NCBI GenBank assembly: GCA_903843225.1
Contig: CAIMOX010000031.1
Location: 1-64,000, forward strand
Length of the DNA stretch: 64,000 nt
Direction of reading: 5' to 3'
Source of the DNA: an uncultured Actinomycetes bacterium
GTDB taxonomy: Bacteria > Actinomycetota > Actinomycetes > Nanopelagicales > Nanopelagicaceae
The notes beneath the pieces were generated by a model, which worked only from the letters and a program-made list of their open reading frames with translations, ran no database searches and was not told the DNA's origin. The position numbers were made by a program, and so were the translations under genes. Position 1 is the first letter of the stretch. Each line of letters starts with the position of its first letter. Below are positions 24,627-41,987 of this stretch, piece by piece.

Positions 24627-25364
24627 ATGCCACCAGTTGCCCAGCCGATGCCTGATAGCGATGTTGAGAGAGTTCTCATTGTTACAGCCCACCCAGATGA
24701 TCTCGACTTCGGAGCTGGTGCAACTATCGCCCAGTGGACCGATGCAGGCATCCAGGTTTCGTATGGCATCTGCACCAACGGTGAGCAGGGTGGAAGTGAC
24801 CTCACAGTAAGCCGTGAAGAGATGCGCAAAATTCGTCAGCGTGAACAGACCAATGCCGGCAAGGTACTCGGTGTCTCAGATATTCACTTCTTGGAATATC
24901 ACGATGGCTTACTCGAACCAACAATTCAATTACGAAAAGATATTGTCCGCCTCATTCGCAAGGTACGTCCACAACGGTTAGTCGTACAGAGCCCAGAGCG
25001 AAATTACGATCGTGTCTTTGCCTCACATCCAGATCACCTTGCCGCTGCAGAGGCTGCGATGCAGGCGGTCTATCCAGATTGTGGCAACCCGTTCGCCTTT
25101 CCAGATTTACTCAAAGACGAGGGGCTCGAACCTTGGAACGTCTCAGAGGCATGGGTTATGACAAATGAATTTAACGACCATTACATTGATACAACGAGCA
25201 CTATTGAGCGCAAGATTCTCGCACTACGTGAGCATGTCAGCCAGATTGCAGATATGGATGCAATGGCAGAACGCCTCCGTGAATGGGGAGCAATCAACGC
25301 TAAGTCAGTAGGACTACCTGAAGGTCGCTTCGCAGAGACTTTCAAGGTAGTCGCAACTAAATAA
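24627..25364 (+). CDS. PIG-L/LmbE family zinc deacetylase
   Basis: A metal-dependent N-acyl-glucosamine-type deacetylase or amidase of about 245 residues. The zinc site motif AHPDDLDFG appears near residue 22, followed by CTNGEQGGSD, LEYHDG and the third ligand in ASHPDHLAAAEA. The family includes MshB and Mca of mycothiol metabolism, but nothing here shows the exact substrate. I chose ATG 24627, since the more upstream in-frame ATG lies inside divergent pcrA; ATG 24648 is another option. It stands alone, divergent from pcrA and convergent with an SDR gene. Confidence 0.85.
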   Translation: MPPVAQPMPDSDVERVLIVTAHPDDLDFGAGATIAQWTDAGIQVSYGICTNGEQGGSDLTVSREEMRKIRQREQTNAGKVLGVSDIHFLEYHDGLLEPTIQLRKDIVRLIRKVRPQRLVVQSPERNYDRVFASHPDHLAAAEAAMQAVYPDCGNPFAFPDLLKDEGLEPWNVSEAWVMTNEFNDHYIDTTSTIERKILALREHVSQIADMDAMAERLREWGAINAKSVGLPEGRFAETFKVVATK

Positions 25365-25366
25365 AA

Positions 25367-26170
25367 CTAGTTAGAGGCCTCACCGTAATTGAAGGTTGTT
25401 ACACAGCCTCCATCGACAGTCACGATTGAACCTGTCATAAATGAAGCATCATCAGAGACTAAGAATGCAGCAACATTTGCAACCTCGATTGGCTGTGCCT
25501 GACGGCCAATAGGTTGCATTCCTGCAGCCTTCTCACGGCGTGCAATAGCTGCCTCAAGTTCCCCTGGTGCCAAAGTCGCACGTCGACGACCAAGACTTGT
25601 ATCGATATATCCTGGGCAGATCGCATTGATGCGAATTCCATCTGGGGCATAATCAACAGTGAGTTGACGGGTGTAGTTGATGATCGCACCTTTAGATGCG
25701 CAATATGCAGCAGCCTTCGGTGCACCGATCAATCCATAGGTAGATGCGATATTAACAATTCTTCCATCGCGTTGCTTCAAGAAATGTGGAAGCGCATACT
25801 TTGTGCAGAGGAATGTTCCGCCGACATTGATCGCCATAATGCGCATGAAGTCTTCGAGTTCGATCTCGTGTGTGCGCAGCTGACCGCCACCCACTCCAGC
25901 ATTATTAACCAGAATATCTAGACCACCATATGTACTGACGGTGGTATCGATAAGGTTCTTTACCTGTGACTCTTGCGAGATATCCGCCTGGACAAAGATC
26001 GCTTCTCCGCCTGCAGCTGTAATCTCTGCAACGGTTCGTTCTCCATCTTCGACAATAACATCTGAAACGGTGACCTTCGCCCCAGATTCAGCAATCTTTT
26101 TGACCGTCGCTCGCCCAATTCCATTTCCAGAACCAGTAACGATGGCAATTTTTCCTCTGAGATCAGTCAT
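25367..26170 (-). CDS. SDR-family NAD(P)-dependent oxidoreductase
   Basis: A classical short-chain dehydrogenase of 267 residues. The cofactor loop is TGSGNGIG (12-19), then DILVNNAG, the catalytic Ser in NIASTYG, the Y-x3-K pair in YCASKG and the closing NAICPGYIDTS and TGSIVTVDGG. Cofactor preference probably favours NAD, since an Asp follows the second strand (VSDVIVEDG). Substrate is unknown. It is the last gene of the peptide-importer operon, 14 nt after the aminopeptidase gene, so it may process a released amino or hydroxy acid. Confidence 0.9.
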   Translation of the reverse strand: MTDLRGKIAIVTGSGNGIGRATVKKIAESGAKVTVSDVIVEDGERTVAEITAAGGEAIFVQADISQESQVKNLIDTTVSTYGGLDILVNNAGVGGGQLRTHEIELEDFMRIMAINVGGTFLCTKYALPHFLKQRDGRIVNIASTYGLIGAPKAAAYCASKGAIINYTRQLTVDYAPDGIRINAICPGYIDTSLGRRRATLAPGELEAAIARREKAAGMQPIGRQAQPIEVANVAAFLVSDDASFMTGSIVTVDGGCVTTFNYGEASN

Positions 26171-26184
26171 GAGTGCTCCTCTTA

Positions 26185-27009
26185 CTATTCGACGATTGTG
26201 CGGCTAAGGAATACGGTGGTGATGAAACGCTTGAAGAGCGCAAGTGGGTCTGTATCAGTGAGTTCCACAGTCTTCGCACCTATTCGGGTAGTGCCTGGAA
26301 TCCATGTGGCTTGTTCTGCAAAGTCTCCATTATGGAAGCTGATCTCAATTGTTGCAGGCAGAGTGATCGCAGGCTTACGAATAGATGCAAGGTTAGTTAC
26401 TGCATCTTTAGCCTTCGACTTAATAAGTTCACAGGCTTCAACTGGGTGCATCGAGTTAGCTGCAAGGCGTGAGACGCTCTCTTTCACAACTGCAGAGCGA
26501 ACATCAGGTGACCAAAGCTCTGTCTCGATACGTGTTGTCTCATCACCAGTCACAAGAACGATTGGGACACCGTAGTGCTGTGCAACAAGGCTATTTAAGC
26601 CAGCCTCTGAGACGATCTTTCCATTGAGCTTGATATCTGCAATCGCGCGTGGATTGTACGTATGTGAAAGAACAGAACCCTCGCTACTCATCGAACCGTG
26701 GTAGCTCACGAAGAAGATTGCATCAAATGAACTATCGAGGCCTTGCATCATGTACATAGGCTTATGTTTTCCTGACAAGTAACGAGCCTTGCCAGCAAGG
26801 GTTGCAGGTTTGAGATTTTGCATGCTTGAGTGCGAATCATTGACCAAGAACTCTGTGGCTCCTGCAGCAAGTGCGCCTTCAATACTTGCATTGATCTCGT
26901 TTTGAAGCAGATCGCGGTAGTAGCCATACTCTGGATTTCCGTGGAGACATTGGGTCCAATCGACTACTCCTGCTGTGCCTTCCATGTCGGAGCTGATGTA
27001 GATTTTCAT
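26185..27009 (-). CDS. dppA: DppA-type D-aminopeptidase (peptidase family M55)
   Basis: A zinc aminopeptidase of 274 residues. The M55 metal-binding start is MKIYISSDMEGTAGV, with ligands D8 and E10. Further hallmarks are the VNDSHSSMQNL block, FFVSYHGSM and SHTYNP, and VTGDETT. Bacillus subtilis DppA, the family reference, cleaves D-Ala-containing dipeptides and is likewise encoded beside a dipeptide ABC importer. The ATG overlaps the upstream hydrolase stop by 4 nt (ATGA). The enzyme is cytosolic: no signal sequence. Role here: probably splits imported dipeptides, perhaps with D-residues. Confidence 0.92.
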   Translation of the reverse strand: MKIYISSDMEGTAGVVDWTQCLHGNPEYGYYRDLLQNEINASIEGALAAGATEFLVNDSHSSMQNLKPATLAGKARYLSGKHKPMYMMQGLDSSFDAIFFVSYHGSMSSEGSVLSHTYNPRAIADIKLNGKIVSEAGLNSLVAQHYGVPIVLVTGDETTRIETELWSPDVRSAVVKESVSRLAANSMHPVEACELIKSKAKDAVTNLASIRKPAITLPATIEISFHNGDFAEQATWIPGTTRIGAKTVELTDTDPLALFKRFITTVFLSRTIVE

Positions 27010-27959
27010 AGTAGTGCCTTTCTTGGTCGGAACTCAGGTTGAGTAGAACTCTCGGTCATCAGTGTGTATGTAGAACCTTCCATACCAGCAGCGCCACCAT
27101 GGTGGCCATCTGCGGTGATAGCAAGACATCGAAGTTCAGCTCTGAAATCATCAGGAAGATTTCTTGCATCTTTGAGAGCTTCAAAACAAGCATCTTCGGC
27201 GCTCATACCGTGGCGCATATTTTCTACAACTGTTCGTGCAGTTCCGCCACGTAGCGAGAGCTCACCACGACCGGTGCACGCTGCTGCGCCATAGCGACTA
27301 TCCGCATAATTTCCAGCTCCTGGGATCGAAGAATCTCCGACTCTGCCTGGGTGCTTGTATGGATAGCCACTGGTGCTTACGCCGCAGACAATCTCTCCAG
27401 AGCGATCGCGAGCGATAATGTTGATTGTTCCCCATGGGCCCTCGTGAGGTGCAAACTTTTTCACAAGCTCGATTGCAGCCAAGCGGTAGCGAACGTCACC
27501 GGTCATCGCCTTGGTGTTTTCGCCTTCAATGGATTGAACAGGAACATCTCGAAGTTGCTGCAGCCAAAGCTCTTTAGCTTCTGGAGTTAAGAGTTCGGCA
27601 CGTTTAAATCCAACTGAGTCTGCAAAATCTTCAGCGCCTTGACCCACAAGAAGGGCATGCTGTGGCAACTTCTCCATCACTGCGCGTGCGATCGAAATTG
27701 GATTAGGGAAATTCTTCACAGCTCCAACTGCGCCGAATGCGCGGGATGAGCCAACCATGATGGATGCATCAAGTTCTACTTCTCCGCGTGCATTGGGGAG
27801 GCCACCGGTGCCTACATAATGATCTGCAAGATTATCTTCACAGAGGATCAATCCGCGTTCAACCGCTTCTAGCGCAGAACCACCACGACGCAAGATCTCC
27901 ATCGCTGCAGGGATGCCAGCTTCACTTCTTTCGCTTCCTATGATCAGTAACTCTGCCAT
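27006..27959 (-). CDS. Ntn-hydrolase: aspartylglucosaminidase / isoaspartyl peptidase family
   Basis: A 317-residue self-cleaving amidohydrolase of family T2. The catalytic Thr that becomes the new N-terminus is expected at T178 in PWGTINIIARD. Substrate-binding blocks are HPGRVGDSSIPGAGNYAD and CTGRGE, closer to aspartylglucosaminidases than to plant-type isoaspartyl peptidases. The alpha-chain starts with GGSALEAVERG and has GTGGLPNARGE. No signal peptide, so cytosolic. It probably cleaves N4-substituted asparagine or beta-aspartyl peptides. It lies between the ABC importer and dppA, overlapping dppA by 4 nt and 57 nt after the second ATPase gene. Confidence 0.88.
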   Translation of the reverse strand: MAELLIIGSERSEAGIPAAMEILRRGGSALEAVERGLILCEDNLADHYVGTGGLPNARGEVELDASIMVGSSRAFGAVGAVKNFPNPISIARAVMEKLPQHALLVGQGAEDFADSVGFKRAELLTPEAKELWLQQLRDVPVQSIEGENTKAMTGDVRYRLAAIELVKKFAPHEGPWGTINIIARDRSGEIVCGVSTSGYPYKHPGRVGDSSIPGAGNYADSRYGAAACTGRGELSLRGGTARTVVENMRHGMSAEDACFEALKDARNLPDDFRAELRCLAITADGHHGGAAGMEGSTYTLMTESSTQPEFRPRKALL

Positions 27960-28016
27960 CGCGAGCCTCTCTCTATGTAAATAATCACCGTTCGAAAGAG
28001 CGGTGAACTCTTCATG

Positions 28017-28985
28017 TTAAAGATTGATACAAGCAGCTTGGTGATCCTTCGATCCAATCTGGATGAGCGCAGGATCTGTTGTGGCGCAGGCAGATGTCGC
28101 AATAGGGCAACGGCTCTGGAAGCGGCAACCCTCGTAGCGCGCTTGAATTGTTGGGAGTTCACCTTGAGGCGCAGCTCCAAGTTTTGAACCTGGGGTCATC
28201 TTTGGAACTGATCCAAGAAGTAATTTTGTATAAGGATGTTGTGGGTTATTAAATACTTCAGAGGTCAGGCCTTCTTCAACGATACGGCCCAAGTACATCA
28301 CCGCAATACGATCGCTAACCTGTCGCACAATCGCAATATTGTGAGAGATAAAGAGCATTGTGAGGCCCAAATCGCGTTTCAAATCTTGGAGAAGGTTAAC
28401 GATGGAGGCCTGAACCGATACATCGAGAGCTGAAACCGCTTCATCTGCGATAAGAATCTTTGGCTCTAGTGCGAGCGCGCGGGCAATACCGATTCGTTGG
28501 CGCTGTCCACCCGAGAACTGACGTGGATAGGCCTGTAAAGCAGTAACTGGCAATCCAACAAGTTCCATCAACTCAACACAGCGTTTCTGAACGCTCTCTT
28601 TATCTGCAAGCTTATGGAATAAGAGAATCTCTTCGAGCATATCCCCGACTTTCATGCGGGGGTTTAACGAGGAGTACGGATCTTGGAAGATCATTTGCAC
28701 TGCGCGACGTTCTTCAAGAGAACGATCATTACCAATCTGACGATCAAAGAGTGAGAGAGATCCTCCGCTCGATGGATAAAGACCAACGAGTGTTCGTCCA
28801 AGAGTGGATTTACCGCAACCGGATTCTCCGACAAGCCCAATTGTTGATCCAGCTGGCATCGAGAGATCTACTCCATCGACAGCAGGGACCGACAACGGCT
28901 CTTTCCCGCGAAGCTTGCCAATGAGAGATTGCTTGCCAACAAAATGCTTTGACAAGTTAGATGCGCTTAAAACGATATCACTCAT
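28017..28985 (-). CDS. Oligopeptide ABC transporter ATPase (DppF/OppF)
   Basis: Second ATPase of a peptide importer, about 322 residues. Walker A is GESGCGKS, the signature FSGGQRQR and Walker B ILIADEAVSALD, followed by FISHN. The C-terminal oligopeptide-type extension has Cys-rich CRFQSRCPIAT and CATTDPAL. A longer reading frame exists, but ATG 28985 gives [15 protein letters not shown] and overlaps the upstream ATPase stop by 4 nt (ATGA). It pairs with the adjacent DppD-like ATPase. Confidence 0.94.
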   Translation of the reverse strand: MSDIVLSASNLSKHFVGKQSLIGKLRGKEPLSVPAVDGVDLSMPAGSTIGLVGESGCGKSTLGRTLVGLYPSSGGSLSLFDRQIGNDRSLEERRAVQMIFQDPYSSLNPRMKVGDMLEEILLFHKLADKESVQKRCVELMELVGLPVTALQAYPRQFSGGQRQRIGIARALALEPKILIADEAVSALDVSVQASIVNLLQDLKRDLGLTMLFISHNIAIVRQVSDRIAVMYLGRIVEEGLTSEVFNNPQHPYTKLLLGSVPKMTPGSKLGAAPQGELPTIQARYEGCRFQSRCPIATSACATTDPALIQIGSKDHQAACINL

Positions 28986-30007
28986 GAGCGCGCCTTTCCT
29001 TGGGTGCCTTGAGAGAAGTGACCTGCAGGGATCTTCTCGGTGAAGTTTGATGCGTGATGGCATGCCGAGAATGAGCTTGCCTGGGCCAGAAGTGCTGGCT
29101 CGTTCTCGCTACACAATTGTGTTGTAGCAAAACAGCGCGGCGCAAATGGGCAACCTGTAACGGGTTTGGTGAGATCTGCCGTCTCCCCCGATATTGAGAA
29201 GAGTCGCTCACTTTGGTGATCAACATCTGGAGCTGATTTCAATAATGAGTAGGTGTACGGATGCGACGGGCGTTGGAAGGTATTTGCAACGCTTCCGCTT
29301 TCAACGAAGCGACCGGCATACATAACGTTGATCTCATCACAGATCTCGTTAACAACGGCGAGGTCATGGGTAACAAAGACAAGACCAGTGCGCTCTTTGA
29401 CGCGAAGTTCCATCAACAAGCGAAGAACTTGAGCCTGAATGGTGACATCAAGGGCAGTGGTTGGCTCGTCGCAGAAGATTAATTGTGGGTTTCCAGAAAG
29501 TGCTATCGCAATTGCTACACGTTGGCGCAAGCCACCAGATAGTTGATGTGGATAGAGAGAGAAACGTTTCTCTGCCTCTGGAATTCCTACGAGCTCCATG
29601 AGCTCGATCGCGCGTGCATGGGATTTCTCTTTCGACCAACCAAGTCGGCGATGAGGGACCTCTGCAATTTGTACGCCGATGCGCATTACTGGATTCAGGG
29701 CTGCAATCGCATCTTGGAAGACAATTCCAATTTTCTCTGAAAGTAGTGCGCGCCTGGCTTTTTCACTCAGCGTCGCTAGATCTACTCCGTCGACATGGAT
29801 CTCTCCACTGGTTACTCGCGCATTCTTCGGAAGTAGACCAAGAATTGCCTTGAGAGTAATGGATTTACCGCTGCCAGATTCGCCAACGATTCCAAGGCTA
29901 TCTCCAGCGTTAACATCTAAGGAGACACCGCGAATCGCTTTTAAGAGACCGCGAGAAGTATCAATCTCAACATGGAGATCTCTGACTGATAGAAGTGGCG
30001 TACTCAT
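28982..30007 (-). CDS. Oligopeptide ABC transporter ATPase (DppD/OppD)
   Basis: First ATPase of the peptide importer, 341 residues. It contains [19 protein letters not shown]-like start elements, Walker A GESGSGKS, signature LSGGLRQR and Walker [11 protein letters not shown], with FVTHDLAVV. The C-terminal extension [10 protein letters not shown] and Cys/His near the end (FSACHH) are typical of OppD-type subunits, some of which hold an Fe-S cluster. The gene overlaps the upstream permease and downstream ATPase genes by 4 nt each. Confidence 0.94.
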
Positions 30008-30849
30008 TTATTTAACCTCTTCACCAATCCATCGCCGATAAGTGAGAGCCCAAAGCCAGTGATAACAACCATAACTCCTGGAATAGTAGGGATCCACCAC
30101 TGTTGCAAGATATAAGCCTGGCCTTCTTGAATCATCGATCCCCATTCAGCTGTTGGAATCGGAACACCAAGACCGAGATAACCAAGAGAAACGATCGCCA
30201 AGATGCTCAAGACGATGTCACTCATCGAGAAGATAATCGCCTGAGTAATAACATTTGGCAGAACGTGCTTTCGTAAAATTCGAGATGTTGGAAGCCCGCT
30301 CAGCTTTGCAGCATGGACGTAATCCAACTCTTTAGCAACCAGCACAGCTGCTCGAACAATTCTGCAATAGGCAACCCATCCGACCAAGCTGATCGCCAAG
30401 ATAATCGCCTTAGGGCCGGCACCCACTACAAATACGAGAGCGATAGCCATGACATAGAAAGGAAATGCGATTGTTGTATCGACGATACGCATTACCAGTG
30501 TGTCAAAGAGTCCACCACGCCAACCCGAGATCAATCCAAGGGTCGTACCAAGTATGAATGGAAAGACCACTGCAAGGATTCCGATCGTTAAATCGATTCG
30601 GGCGCCATACATTATGCGAGTAAGTACATCTCGACCAAGCTGATCAGTACCTAAAAGGTGATGTCTGGTTGGAGCGATCAGGGTATTTTCTAAATCCTGT
30701 CCCGTAGGGTCGTAATGAGAGAGCAATGGAGCAGCAATCGCAATAAGGGCTAGAAGCCCAATGATAATAATCCCAGAGTAGAGGGCGGTATTTGCAGAGA
30801 AGTTAAGTCTCTTAACAATTCCCTTACCTGGGAAGCGTTGAGTTCTCAT
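30004..30849 (-). CDS. Oligopeptide ABC transporter permease (DppC/OppC)
   Basis: A 281-residue inner-membrane permease with six predicted spans. The N-terminus shows SHYDPTGQDLENTLIAPTRHH-type sequence (LGTDQLGRDVLTRIMYGAR follows), the standard DppC extracytoplasmic motif. The EAA loop is present as AKLSGLPTSRILRKHVLPN. It overlaps dppB-like and dppD-like genes by 4 nt on both sides, so the four transporter genes form a tightly coupled translation unit. Confidence 0.94.
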   Translation of the reverse strand: MRTQRFPGKGIVKRLNFSANTALYSGIIIIGLLALIAIAAPLLSHYDPTGQDLENTLIAPTRHHLLGTDQLGRDVLTRIMYGARIDLTIGILAVVFPFILGTTLGLISGWRGGLFDTLVMRIVDTTIAFPFYVMAIALVFVVGAGPKAIILAISLVGWVAYCRIVRAAVLVAKELDYVHAAKLSGLPTSRILRKHVLPNVITQAIIFSMSDIVLSILAIVSLGYLGLGVPIPTAEWGSMIQEGQAYILQQWWIPTIPGVMVVITGFGLSLIGDGLVKRLNK

Positions 30850-31784
30850 AGCGCCACTCGCGGATCAAGTGCGGCATGAATTAAATCTGCGAGCAAGTTG
30901 ACGGTGACAACGACGAGAGCAAAGAAAATGGTGACACCTTGCACAATGGGATAATCTCGCTGTGAAATTGCATCGATCATGAGAGAGCCCGTCGCTGGAA
31001 TTGCGAAGACTCGTTCGACAATAACGGTTGAGCCAACAAGATACGCGATATTTACACCCAGTACCGTGACAGATGCGATGATCGAGTTACGAACTACATG
31101 CGAAAGCATGACTCGGGTTCGTCCGATTCCCTTTGCCTTTGCTGTTAATACAAAATCTGCTTCAAGGATCTCGAGCATCGCTGCACGAAGACTACGGATC
31201 AAAATAGGTGAGAGGCCGATTGCAATCGAGAGCGATGGCAAGAATGTGGAGCGCAGATGTTGCAAGAAAGTATCCCCGAAACCACTTACCGGGAAGAGAT
31301 GAATTTTGAGACCGAAGAGCAAGATCAGTTCTATACCGATCCAAACTTGAGGCATTCCTAAACCAATGATAGGCACCACACGCACAACCTGATCTCTGAT
31401 TGCACCTTCTTTTGATGCTGCGAGAATTGCGAGTGGGAGGCTGATAAGCAGTGCAAGAATAATTCCACCGAACATCAAGAAGAGAGTTGCGCTCAATCTT
31501 CCTGCAATGAGGGAGCTAACGGCGGTGTTGTTATAAAAACTTACCCCAAGAGAGCCCTGGAAGAGGTGGCCCAAGAAAGAGAAGTACTGGATGAGAAGCG
31601 GGCGGTCGATACCAAGTAAGTGGTGAATCGCCTTAACGCGCGCATCGGTGGCTCGCTGCCCGAGGATTACATCTGCTGGATCTCCAGGGATTGCATGAAC
31701 TAAGAGAAAGACAACGACTGAAATGCCAAAGAGGGCGGGTAGGACTTGTAAGAACCTCTTGCCAGCATAGAACAAGAAATTCAT
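30846..31784 (-). CDS. Oligopeptide ABC transporter permease (DppB/OppB)
   Basis: A 312-residue membrane permease. Typical DppB features are FLLVHAIPGDPADVILG near the N-terminus, the EAA-type loop AKAKGIGRTRVMLSHVVRNS and VERVFAIPATGSLMIDAI near the C-terminus. Six hydrophobic spans can be traced. It is separated from the binding-protein gene by about 100 nt that contain a perfect hairpin, so its expression is probably lower than that of the binding protein. Confidence 0.94.
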   Translation of the reverse strand: MNFLFYAGKRFLQVLPALFGISVVVFLLVHAIPGDPADVILGQRATDARVKAIHHLLGIDRPLLIQYFSFLGHLFQGSLGVSFYNNTAVSSLIAGRLSATLFLMFGGIILALLISLPLAILAASKEGAIRDQVVRVVPIIGLGMPQVWIGIELILLFGLKIHLFPVSGFGDTFLQHLRSTFLPSLSIAIGLSPILIRSLRAAMLEILEADFVLTAKAKGIGRTRVMLSHVVRNSIIASVTVLGVNIAYLVGSTVIVERVFAIPATGSLMIDAISQRDYPIVQGVTIFFALVVVTVNLLADLIHAALDPRVAL

Positions 31785-31842
31785 TAAAGCCCCACCACGT
31801 CCTCTCTAGTTTCTAATGAGTTATTACTTCTTTGCTTAGAAC

Positions 31843-31872
31843 CGAATATGGGGAGCGTACTCCCCATATTCG
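31843..31872 (-). promoter_or_regulatory. Intercistronic hairpin between binding-protein and permease genes
   Basis: A perfect 13-bp stem, CGAATATGGGGAG and its complement, with a 4-nt loop, 15 nt beyond the binding-protein stop. No T-run follows on the minus strand, so it resembles a 3'-end mRNA stabiliser or partial terminator that raises binding-protein over permease levels. Confidence 0.7.
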
Positions 31873-31886
31873 TATTACTGAATTAA

Positions 31887-33431
31887 TTAACCCTTCTTCA
31901 CATCTTCCATATGGTAAGAAAGTGTTGGGGTTACTTGGAATCCAGTGATCTTTGAGCTCCATGAGTAGATATATGGTGCGTTGTAAGCAAAGATCATCAT
32001 CGCTTCATTTGCAACAGTCTTCTGTACAAATGAGTATGACTTCTGACGAGCGACTGGATCAGCATCTGACTGTCCAGCGCGAACTGCAGCAACAACAGCT
32101 GGGTTGTTGTAGTTCGTGTAGAAGGCGTGTGTTCCACCGTTCTCAGGATCAAGTGCGAATGTAAGCAATTCGTCTGGATCTGAAATATCCATTGTCCAGC
32201 CTGTGCTTGTTAGCTGATAATTCATCGCCTTCTGAGTTGCGCGCTTTACCTTTGGCTCTTGAGTCTTGATGGTGAGTGTTACACCAATCTTCTTCAGAGA
32301 TGCCTGCAGGATTGAGCTCATCGCATTATCTTCGACGCTTCCTGATGTTGCTAGATATTCAAGCTTGAGTCCCTTAGCGAACTTTGACTTTGCAAGCTCT
32401 GCAGCAGCAGCCTTGAGGTCATATTGAACGCCTGGTGACTTAGCATCGTAGAAGCCAACATTTGGAGCGAGGATTGAGTTTGATGGGGTTCCAAGACCAC
32501 CAAGGACTACCTTGATGACTGCGCGACGATCAAATGCATAAGAAAGAGCACGACGAACGTGTACATCAGCGAGTGCTGGAGTACTCAATTCATTCATAGC
32601 GATGAATTCTGATGCAGCGGCAGGGAATGCCTTGACCATAAGACCTGCGGTCTTCTTGATCTGTGGAACAGAAGTTGCTGGTGGGAACTCGTTGATGTCA
32701 GCCTGGCCTGATGCGAGCATCAATGCACGGGTGTTGTCATCGACAACGTACTTCCATGTTACTGAGTTCAAGTAAGGCTTTCCTGGCTGCCAGTAATTTG
32801 TGTTTGCAACCATCTTGAGTTCAGTTCCAGGTGTCCAGTGATCAAGCTTGAATGGGCCTGTTCCGATTGGAGCCTTGTAGAAAGCTTCAGCTGTCTTTCC
32901 GCCGAAGTTATTAGGAAGGATTGAGTTAGAGAAGCAAGCAAGGTCAGAGAGCAAAGGAGCCCAAGGGGTCTTTGTCTTGATGACAACTGTTGCTGCATCT
33001 GGTGTAGTGATTGTGTCGATAGCAGTGTTCAAGAAGCCCCAGCCATCGCCCTTTGTTGCGAGGTCAAGTGAGAACTTAACATCTGCAGATGTCATAGGTG
33101 TTCCATCGCTGAACTTAACATCGGTACGGAGCTTGATTGTCCAAGTTAATTTATCAGCTGCTTGTGAAGAGCTCTTTGCTAGCCATGGTGAAACTGTCTT
33201 ACCATCTTGGCTAATCATGTAAAGAGGTTCAAAGATTTGTTGCTGAGGGAAGATCGAGTCATTCTGAGCAAGATCTGGATTAAATGTTGCGAAGTCTTGG
33301 TTGCGCACAAGGACGAGATCGCCCTTAGGTGCCGCATTCTCAGCGCTTGCTGGAAGAATGCTCGCTACCAAAGACCCAACGACAGCCGTAGCGAGTACAA
33401 GTACTCGACGTGACTTCTTTGAGGTGAACAT
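31887..33431 (-). CDS. Peptide ABC transporter substrate-binding protein (SBP family 5)
   Basis: Extracytoplasmic receptor of the adjacent importer, 514 residues. A Sec signal (TSKKSRRVLVLATAVVG) with a likely cut after ASA near residue 30 is followed by RNQDFATFNPDLAQND, the family SBP_bac_5 start, KLRTDVKFSDGTPMTSADVKFSL and HVRRALSYAFDRRAVI. There is no lipobox Cys, so unlike most Gram-positive receptors it may be free or held another way. ATG 33431 has AGGAGA upstream; the open extension beyond it is rejected. A 23-bp perfect palindrome lies in the leader. The ligand is probably a di/oligopeptide or amide, judging from the downstream hydrolases. Confidence 0.94.
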   Translation of the reverse strand: MFTSKKSRRVLVLATAVVGSLVASILPASAENAAPKGDLVLVRNQDFATFNPDLAQNDSIFPQQQIFEPLYMISQDGKTVSPWLAKSSSQAADKLTWTIKLRTDVKFSDGTPMTSADVKFSLDLATKGDGWGFLNTAIDTITTPDAATVVIKTKTPWAPLLSDLACFSNSILPNNFGGKTAEAFYKAPIGTGPFKLDHWTPGTELKMVANTNYWQPGKPYLNSVTWKYVVDDNTRALMLASGQADINEFPPATSVPQIKKTAGLMVKAFPAAASEFIAMNELSTPALADVHVRRALSYAFDRRAVIKVVLGGLGTPSNSILAPNVGFYDAKSPGVQYDLKAAAAELAKSKFAKGLKLEYLATSGSVEDNAMSSILQASLKKIGVTLTIKTQEPKVKRATQKAMNYQLTSTGWTMDISDPDELLTFALDPENGGTHAFYTNYNNPAVVAAVRAGQSDADPVARQKSYSFVQKTVANEAMMIFAYNAPYIYSWSSKITGFQVTPTLSYHMEDVKKG

Positions 33432-33454
33432 GTATTTCTCTCCTATCGAGGGTA

Positions 33455-33477
33455 AATGCTTGATCAGATCAAGCATT
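33455..33477. promoter_or_regulatory. Perfect 23-bp palindrome upstream of the peptide-importer operon
   Basis: Arms AATGCTTGATC and GATCAAGCATT around a single A, ending 24 nt before the binding-protein ATG. The length, perfect symmetry and position between divergent operon and amidase gene suggest an operator for a dimeric regulator (GntR/FadR-like sites have this form). No regulator gene is adjacent. Confidence 0.6.
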
Positions 33478-33671
33478 AGGTTGCTGACATGGAGCAAACC
33501 TGAACTAGTACGACCAGCTCGCTTTGCGTGACAACGTTAAAAGCGTATGCGAGAACGCTGAAATAAGCACTACTTTCCAAGAAATTATTTTCACTCCGTT
33601 CCATCTCGGGGCTAGTAACAAAGATGTTATAAATCCCGTGCTTTGGAGATGAAAGTTAGGAGTCGTCGGAG

Positions 33672-34910
33672 TTGCCTTGCGATATACCCTTGCCATCTAT
33701 GTACGAGTTACTGAGAAGTAAGGGGCTCCCCCTTCATGCAATCGTTGAGATCTTTGAACCCGCTATCGAGAGAGCGCCATCCTCGAATCGTCAAGGTGAC
33801 GTAGATCTCGCCGGCGTCACTATTGCCGTGAAGGATATGGTCGCGCTCAAGGGCCATCGCAGGGGAAATGGCAACCCAGTCGATATGCAGAGCGCGCCCT
33901 TCGAAGAACGTAACGCGAGAGTCATCGATCAACTTCTTGACGCGGGTGTGAAAATTGTTGCAACGACTTCTCTCCTTGAATATGCAGCCGGTGCCCAGCA
34001 TCCTGATATTCCTGAGACTCGCAACCCACTAGATACTCGATTAACTGCAGGAGGATCAAGTGCGGGATCGGCGGCGCTAGTAGGAGCAGGAATTATTCCG
34101 CTCGCAGTTGGCACCGATACTGGTGGATCAATACGAATCCCAGCGGCATACTGCGGAACAATTGGATTTAAGCCAACTTCTCAATTGATTTCTTTAGATC
34201 GTGTAACTGCATTAGCTCCTACCTATGATCATCTCGGGTTTATCTCTCAATCCCTGGACCTGATCGAGGCAGCGTTACTGGCAACCACTATGGTGCCTCT
34301 TAAAAAGCCAGAACTTTCACAGCGCATTCGCCTTGGAGTACCGAACTATCTCGTTGATGATCATCGCAATGATGAACGAATAACCACTCGCTTCCGTGAG
34401 ATCGAGGATCGTCTTCGTGCCAATGGCTTTGAGCTCGTCGATATTGATGCTGGAGTGCTCGAAAAGTTCCGCTCAGCCTTCATCGATGTTGTCTTGTACG
34501 AAGCCTGGGAGATCTATGGCGCGCAGGTTCAGAGCGATCCAGGGCATTTTGGTGATGAGACTCGTCGCCTCTTTCTTCTCGGTGAGGCTGTAACAAAGGA
34601 AGATTATGAAGAGAAAATTGAGATCCGCCGCCACGCTTTAGTCGAGTTAAGTGAGTATATGAAAGGAATCGATGCACTCATTATGCCGACAGTTCCGTAC
34701 TTCGCTCCCGAGACGACCCCTCCGATTGACTCAGAGCTTGGCAGTTATGAGAGCCTCTATACCGAAATTTTTAATGTCAGCGGTCAACCAGCGATCACAC
34801 TCCCAGCGCGCTGCGAGCCACTACCTATGGGAATCCAACTCGTTGGCGCTCTCCAAGCAGATCTCAGGCTCTTAGAAGTAGCGCGAAGAGTTCTGCCTTT
34901 ACTTGGCTAA
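33672..34910 (+). CDS. Amidase-signature family hydrolase
   Basis: Hydrolyses an amide bond, cytosolic, about 412 residues. The Ser-cisSer-Lys triad is visible: K54 in AVKDM, the GGSSAGSA loop at 127-134 with the cis-Ser, and the nucleophile S153 in [12 protein letters not shown]. It resembles GatA-like amidases, but no gatC or gatB is near and the protein is shorter than GatA, so a catabolic amidase is more likely. The start is uncertain: TTG 33672 (just after CGGAG) or ATG 33699 are both open. Divergent from the peptide-importer operon and convergent with an SDR gene; it probably belongs to the same nutritional island. Confidence 0.88.
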
Positions 34911-41045: not shown

Positions 41046-41987
41046 CTATAGACCTACTGCACGCTCAATATCGCTACAGGCGCTCATTAAATCAGTGGCG
41101 AGGGTTGCACCCTTGAGCTCTTGCGAGCTCCATCCTGGACCGCCGACAATCACGAGTGGCTTCGGCCTTACCGAAGGTAGATCAGAGATGTATGAAGGGT
41201 CGGCATTCTTACGCAGTTGAGCCCAGAGGAAGATCGCTGGTGGCGCGCTTCGACGAACTACTTCGTTAATTGCAGATGCAGGTGTGCGCGCACCTAAGAA
41301 TTGAATCAAAATTCCTCTCTCAGAGAGCGCGGCAGCGAGCGCAGTAATCGCCAATGAGTGCGTCTCTTCGCCAATGCTTGCAATCAGTACCGGACGTGGA
41401 TTGATCTTGGGGGTGCTTGCATGAATTCGGTTATTAAATAATCGCAGAATTAGATCGGAGAGCAGATGCTCGATCTCAATACCTTCACCCGTGCGTGCCC
41501 AATCATCTCCGACGATGACAAGTAGCGGTACCAAGACTGCGTGCCAGGTCGCTTCAACGCCATGTGATTCGACATGACCTGCAAGAGTCCGTTCGATGAG
41601 CTCGCGGTCTAGTGATCGCGCAGCACGTAGGAGCTGATCTACAAGTGCGTGATCATTCGCCGTAAGAATTGAGTCGAGCAGATGTGAGTGTTGGGCGTTT
41701 TGAGAGTTCTTGTGTAGCTCAGAGTCAGGGAGTGCGAGTGCGGCGCTCGCTGCATCAATCGGTGGCACACCCTCAATAATTAATTTGCGCATGTAGAGCA
41801 GGCGAGCGAGATCTTCGTGGGAGTAGCGTCGGTGCGCGCCATCGATATGTCCGCTTGGTCCGATTCCATACCGTCTAGCCCAGGTTCGCAGTGTTCCGGG
41901 GGCGACGCCGATCCTTCTGGCGACCGAGGCAACACTCATCTCAATCTCAGATGTGTAGCGGTCGATGCTCTCCATACCCCCAAGCAT
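41046..41987 (-). CDS. MerR-type regulator with cobalamin-binding light-sensor domain (CarH/LitR-like)
   Basis: A 313-residue transcription factor. Residues about 17-75 are a MerR-like winged helix (SVASVARRIGVAPGTLRTWARRYG). The middle region (about 100-190) is the four-helix cap domain with W163-x9-E173-H174, the same spacing as the W-E-H motif that caps adenosylcobalamin in CarH. The last third is a Rossmann-like B12 fold with E208-x-H210 in GEETHS (the cobalt-binding His position) and VIVGGPGW near the end. Known relatives are tetrameric repressors in the dark that release DNA when light breaks the Co-C bond. It is divergent from whiB with 90 nt between. ATG 41975 and 41939 are alternative starts; no clear ribosome site precedes 41987. 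Confidence 0.85.
   Translation of the reverse strand: MLGGMESIDRYTSEIEMSVASVARRIGVAPGTLRTWARRYGIGPSGHIDGAHRRYSHEDLARLLYMRKLIIEGVPPIDAASAALALPDSELHKNSQNAQHSHLLDSILTANDHALVDQLLRAARSLDRELIERTLAGHVESHGVEATWHAVLVPLLVIVGDDWARTGEGIEIEHLLSDLILRLFNNRIHASTPKINPRPVLIASIGEETHSLAITALAAALSERGILIQFLGARTPASAINEVVRRSAPPAIFLWAQLRKNADPSYISDLPSVRPKPLVIVGGPGWSSQELKGATLATDLMSACSDIERAVGL

Follow-up and report, generated by a model that had tools for sequence, protein, structure and literature searches.

A conserved, covarying RNA hairpin at the permease start and a palindrome ahead of the receptor in a peptide-importer operon of Nanopelagicaceae

The importer operon and its surroundings

The window, that is, the whole 64-kb stretch of DNA analyzed here, belongs to contig C31 of a genome of 1.35 Mb (G000) and encompasses a peptide-importer operon that is transcribed leftward and encodes, in this order, a receptor, an OppB-like permease, an OppC-like permease, two ATPases, an Asparaginase_2 protein, an M55 D-aminopeptidase, and a short-chain dehydrogenase. 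On the minus strand, the gene of the peptide-binding receptor (SBP_bac_5) spans positions 31887-33431, with AGGAG ahead of the ATG at 33429-33431, and is followed by the genes for the OppB-like permease (30846-31784), the OppC-like permease (30004-30849), and the OppD-like and OppF-like importer ATPases (28017-30007), with the three remaining genes at the operon end (25367-27959). On the other side of the receptor start, a divergent amidase gene (PF01425; 33699-34910, plus strand) begins with an ATG at 33699 or with a TTG at 33672. An inverted-repeat search detected a 13-bp perfect hairpin with a 4-nt loop between the receptor stop and the permease (31843-31872), with stems of at least 7 pairs in 5 of the 15 orthologs, G000 included. 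Long perfect or near-perfect hairpins likewise follow the receptor stop of other binding-protein genes in the family (L089, L019, L020, L018, L015, and L016), so that the hairpin at 31843-31872 is of an ordinary kind.

Among the 296 genomes of the family that were searched, 15, counting G000, encode the receptor at E <=1e-150, and the search for homologous operons on plasmids gave one match, in Deinococcus (31%). In three of the relatives, the operon is followed by a methylaspartate ammonia-lyase-like gene (PF05034/PF07476; L053:15586-16845, L054:1585-2886, and L056:870-2108), which lies beside an isoaspartyl-peptidase-type gene and a D-aminopeptidase gene. Speculatively, isoaspartyl or methylaspartyl peptides, for example, from cyanobacteria, could be among the substrates of the importer.

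Comparison with the genome G007 shows that the importer operon has recently moved between species, with the palindrome described below at one edge of the transferred block. The high-identity block shared with G007 corresponds to window positions 25300-33485: between 25.5 and 33.45 kb, the two genomes are 93-100% identical per 500 bases, compared with 77.6% and 80.4% in the flanks, and alignable homology stops at 33485, just past the palindrome. The segment 33672-36475 is missing between the cyclophilin and receptor genes of G007; its genes, for the divergent amidase, another dehydrogenase, and a hydrolase, occur in G065 and likewise in G034 and G190 as far as their contigs were read. The amidase half of the island is gained or lost separately from the importer.

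The palindrome ahead of the receptor

The spacer common to the receptor and the divergent amidase contains, at 33455-33477, the sequence AATGCTTGATCAGATCAAGCATT, with 11 perfect pairs about one central A, which is exactly the perfect 23-bp palindrome described in a previous, sequence-only reading of this DNA. The distance of 24 nt to the receptor start given there holds as a difference of coordinates, but the spacing is 23 bases. The 64 kb contain six inverted repeats with arms of at least 11 and a spacer of no more than 8, compared with none in each of 20 Markov-chain simulations, and therefore the palindrome is not a chance repeat; by our reading of their positions, three of the other five resemble terminators. 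Within the window, there is no second copy of the 23-mer with up to 3 mismatches, and viral contigs searched for the palindrome pattern gave no match.

We read the leader of each of the 14 operon-bearing relatives, judging the absence of the dyad by eye. A recognizable dyad is kept in two of them, G007 and, in part, G065, whereas the other 12, including G034 and G190 of the same genus, have no such dyad. In G007, where the receptor is 99% identical, the dyad is GAAGTTTGATCTGATCAAACTTT, the same as in G000 at 18 of the 23 positions; the 26 bases that follow, up to and including the ATG, are identical. Two of its pairs are altered on both sides (T-A to A-T and C-G to T-A) with pairing kept, and the outermost A-T is replaced by G.T; such double changes comprise these two pairs, in a comparison of only the three genomes that have the dyad in common. 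In G065 (receptor 69%), the dyad is GATGTTTGATCACCTCAAACATT, with 17 of the 23 positions the same as in G000 and nine pairs kept (the outermost a G.T), an altered loop, and an unpaired center. The divergent amidase of G000 is also found in G034 and G190, which lack the dyad, whereas in G007, a cyclophilin gene takes the place of the amidase and the dyad is still present, so that it serves no amidase there.

The reading that we favor, with a probability of roughly 0.45, is that the palindrome is the final stem-loop in the 5' leader of the importer mRNA and immediately precedes the receptor ribosome-binding site; we give the same rough probability to its working as RNA. The proposed transcribed leader (33432-33535, minus strand), with its transcription start inferred, would begin below a weak -10-like box, TACGCT (33542-33547, minus strand), recognized only through its alignment with TACTCT in G065 and TAGGCT in G007. 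In the alignment of the three leaders, the palindrome of G000 lies 65-87 nt downstream of this box; a consensus scan of the leader region for a sigma-70-type promoter found none. Between the palindrome and the receptor, CCCTCGATAGGAG (33440-33452, minus strand), which contains the receptor Shine-Dalgarno sequence, is shared unchanged by 4 of the 5 operon-bearing genomes of the genus, with no second copy in those four.

The last 90 nt before the receptor ATG fold with a z of -3.24; 17 upstream gaps of the window, among them two of this operon (31784 and 33497) and that of the amidase, average -0.47. For whole leaders, the limits of which were set by eye, z ranges from +0.31 to -4.82 across the orthologs, with -2.06 in G000. 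Hairpins seemed to be present in the leaders of most orthologs, but a control rejected them as a family-wide feature, with the best local hairpin reaching p <=0.05 in 1 of 15 leaders (p 0.09 in G000). We also rejected a stem, P1 (33478-33501), just upstream of the palindrome, the 5' partner of which is unaligned across the three genomes and which is altered in a longer fold. In a search of 33300-33750 against Rfam 15, no family reached its threshold, one match scoring 17.9 bits compared with a threshold of 49.

We favor the leader stem-loop over an operator because of the pairing-preserving changes, the position of the dyad below the -10-like box, the leader z, the single copy, and the lack of an adjacent regulator. 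Counting against it are the symmetry to the very center, which a hairpin loop does not need, the common half-sites, the limitation of leader hairpins to 1 of 15 orthologs, and the failure of the consensus scan to recognize the promoter. If formed, the stem-loop would act in cis, either by protecting the leader or by preventing the ribosome-binding site from pairing with other regions.

The sequence-only reading had predicted an operator controlling the island, and the strongest of the rival explanations, tentative as it is, retains part of that prediction: the dyad would bind an unlinked dimeric regulator of this operon alone, through half-sites GYTTGATC about the central base. Like GntR- and LacI-type operators, the palindrome is a perfect dyad about a single central base and lies ahead of a transporter operon. 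Its two-fold symmetry exceeds chance, as would be expected of an operator, and extends to the very center in G000 and G007, the core GYTTGA recurs in all six half-sites of G000, G007, and G065, and the dyad stays at the 5' end of the operon in G007 and, partly, in G065. Unlike those operators, it has no regulator gene nearby and no second site, and it is poorly conserved with the operon, absent as it is from 12 of the 14 relatives, which largely contradicts the conservation expected beside the same operon. The dyad also lies far downstream of the aligned -10-like box, persists in G007, which lacks the amidase, and differs there by symmetric, pairing-preserving changes of letters between two genomes of one genus.

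The genome-wide search that had been suggested as a check on the operator found the dyad once in the genome, and the near-matches inspected lie in open reading frames: in G000, one further match, of this kind, was obtained for the 19-mer core when 3 mismatches were allowed, and likewise one for the 17-mer when 2 were allowed. Across 32 genomes of the genus, with 1 mismatch allowed, the six loci inspected outside G000 and G007 are all coding (a match in G131:C81 falls outside that count), and accordingly, we rejected a regulon. Five genomes share a near-match within a gene whose protein reads DWFDQNKR, presumably MutY. The flanks of 13 relatives contain 36 open reading frames without a homolog in the window; among the 20 of these 36 that were scanned, no DNA-binding protein adjoins the island in the relatives with flanks read, and the single HTH protein, found in G034 only, is not adjacent to it. 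A MerR-type regulator with a B12-binding domain is encoded at 41046-41987 of the window, where it adjoins guaB-like genes and keeps its position in G007 and G065; nothing connects this gene to the palindrome.

We consider it unlikely that the palindrome is a neutral inverted repeat without present function at the edge of the recently exchanged block, as could be suggested by the drop in identity between G000 and G007 from 93-100% to about 77-80% in the flanks, the end of homology just past the dyad, and the 12 of 14 relatives that lack it; two pairing-preserving double changes would be improbable in such a repeat, and its arms exceed chance. A transcription terminator or attenuator stem is very improbable: the stem-loop does lie between a promoter-like box and a gene, but the stem is A+T-rich, no U run follows it on either strand, and 33300-33760 contains no terminator-like site.

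A hairpin at the permease start

The better-supported regulatory element of this operon lies 1.6 kb downstream of the palindrome, and came to light when the inverted-repeat search led to the receptor-permease junction. It is a 92-nt hairpin (31723-31814, minus strand) that extends from 30 nt before to 62 nt after the first base of the permease start and thus encompasses the Shine-Dalgarno region, the start codon, and the first codons of the OppB-like permease. The 5' arm (about 31788-31806) is non-coding and includes the likely Shine-Dalgarno region, whereas the 3' arm (about 31728-31749) consists of permease codons 12-19, which encode LP(A/V)LFG in our own translation. The region aligns without gaps in 15 of the 15 operons found among the 296 family genomes and folds into a single hairpin in each, at -35.6 to -51.6 kcal/mol, more stable in every case than all 200 dinucleotide shuffles of the same sequence (z -5.73 to -10.53). 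The copy in the window (-44.2) is the most stable of 55 start regions there, for which the median is -21.9; nothing comparable forms at the permease starts of three further importer operons in the family (-18.2, -25.2, and -21.6).

Changes in the non-coding 5' arm are matched by changes in the permease codons, with 12 of the 32 pairs altered on both sides in some sequence. Pairing is retained in 88.8% of the alignment cells compared with 45.6-55.0% in slid versions, a control that flatters the structure because the sequences are related and the structure was derived from their consensus; the gap-free alignment, in which the outer helix of some genus members is shifted by one register, introduces the opposite bias. 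The covariation score is 0.361 compared with 0.253 in shuffles, none of 500 being as high, although two of the five pair measures are not clearly above shuffles (446 of 500 shuffles have as many further pair types, and 13 of 500 match the number of pairs with double changes). In all 15 orthologs, the Shine-Dalgarno region and the start lie within the conserved, covarying stem, as expected of a structure that sequesters a start site.

A covariance model built on the hairpin, with at most 14 candidates scored per genome, such that distant copies could be missed, matches 15 of the 296 family genomes, which are exactly the carriers of the operon, always at the permease start; there are also 12 weak reverse-strand matches in the same places. 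Among 376 genomes of the phylum, the sole match besides G000 itself, in G721, turned out to be an unrelated long hairpin. In a genome of another family (G387, receptor 51%), an analogous hairpin involves the same codons but a 5' arm shifted by 6 nt (z -5.75; none of 200 shuffles as stable), and 8 genomes of the order of G387 yielded no further ortholog; in G427 (receptor 48%), there is no comparable hairpin (z -0.44). Rfam 15 has no match in 31600-32000, and a literature search for this permease-start hairpin found no paper. Judging from these sequence comparisons, the hairpin is almost certainly a real RNA structure.

Proposed control of the receptor-to-permease ratio and known systems

Binding-protein importers generally require far more receptor than channel, and the operon could be tuned at the RNA level, with each cistron adjusted separately. 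The Shine-Dalgarno region and the permease start would pair with codons 12-19, reducing permease translation below that of the receptor, and folding predictions indicate when such a block would form. In folds of progressively longer prefixes of the G000 transcript, the Shine-Dalgarno region is predicted to be 0.83 unpaired at 70 nt and 0.13 unpaired at >=82 nt, by which length the 3' arm has been synthesized; the averages for the 15 orthologs are 0.58 and 0.14. The permease start codon is predicted to be 0.41 open on average, so that the block would act mainly on the Shine-Dalgarno region. With the same geometry, the receptor start region reaches -20.5 kcal/mol compared with -44.2 at the permease; the receptor start codon is predicted to be 0.66 to 0.91 open and its Shine-Dalgarno region 0.26 to 0.34 unpaired. 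Because the latter is also mostly paired (0.26 in the longer fold), stability is what sets the two starts apart.

The hairpin probably lowers permease translation, with the finished mRNA expected to load ribosomes poorly at the permease start. The hairpin at 31843-31872 could, by analogy with known cases, protect the receptor part from 3' decay, and the net result of one transcript would be much receptor and little channel. We regard as unlikely the further possibility that the permease hairpin is a translation timer, in which ribosomes could load only until transcription reaches the closing arm. Loading would then last for about 50-60 nt of transcription, and such brief loading on nascent RNA would therefore yield few permeases and many receptors per transcript. 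If this were true, folding kinetics encoded in the permease codons would determine importer stoichiometry, and no protein regulator would be involved.

A covarying cis hairpin in every ortholog found offers a concrete, testable answer to how one operon might produce unequal protein amounts; the locus also illustrates how a striking palindrome can distract from the better-supported element. Intercistronic stem-loops are known to follow binding-protein genes, for example, between malE and malF, and the hairpin between receptor stop and permease at 31843-31872, like those at six other importer loci, resembles them. Those stem-loops sit in the gaps between genes, whereas the conserved hairpin described here takes in the permease start and codons. 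For some importers of the freshwater acI lineage, expression of the binding protein at 1.7 to 411 times the median is described (PMC5574706).

A close parallel to the proposed control point is OppZ of Vibrio cholerae, a small RNA from the 3' end of the operon that works together with Hfq as a trans-acting regulator and pairs where oppB translation begins, such that oppBCDF falls and oppA does not (PMC7398697). In both cases, the control point is an oppB-type start, and the receptor would be spared here as oppA is there, but the effect of OppZ was measured, whereas that of the hairpin described here, which acts in cis and is built with permease codons, is inferred. Start sites closed by stable long-range folds, as predicted at the permease, are known from the maturation-gene leader of phage MS2 and from aapA mRNAs, where open or closed intermediates that depend on folding time are described during RNA synthesis (PMC6733600). 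Those are a phage gene and toxin genes, whereas the gene concerned here belongs to an importer operon and the timing is modeled only.
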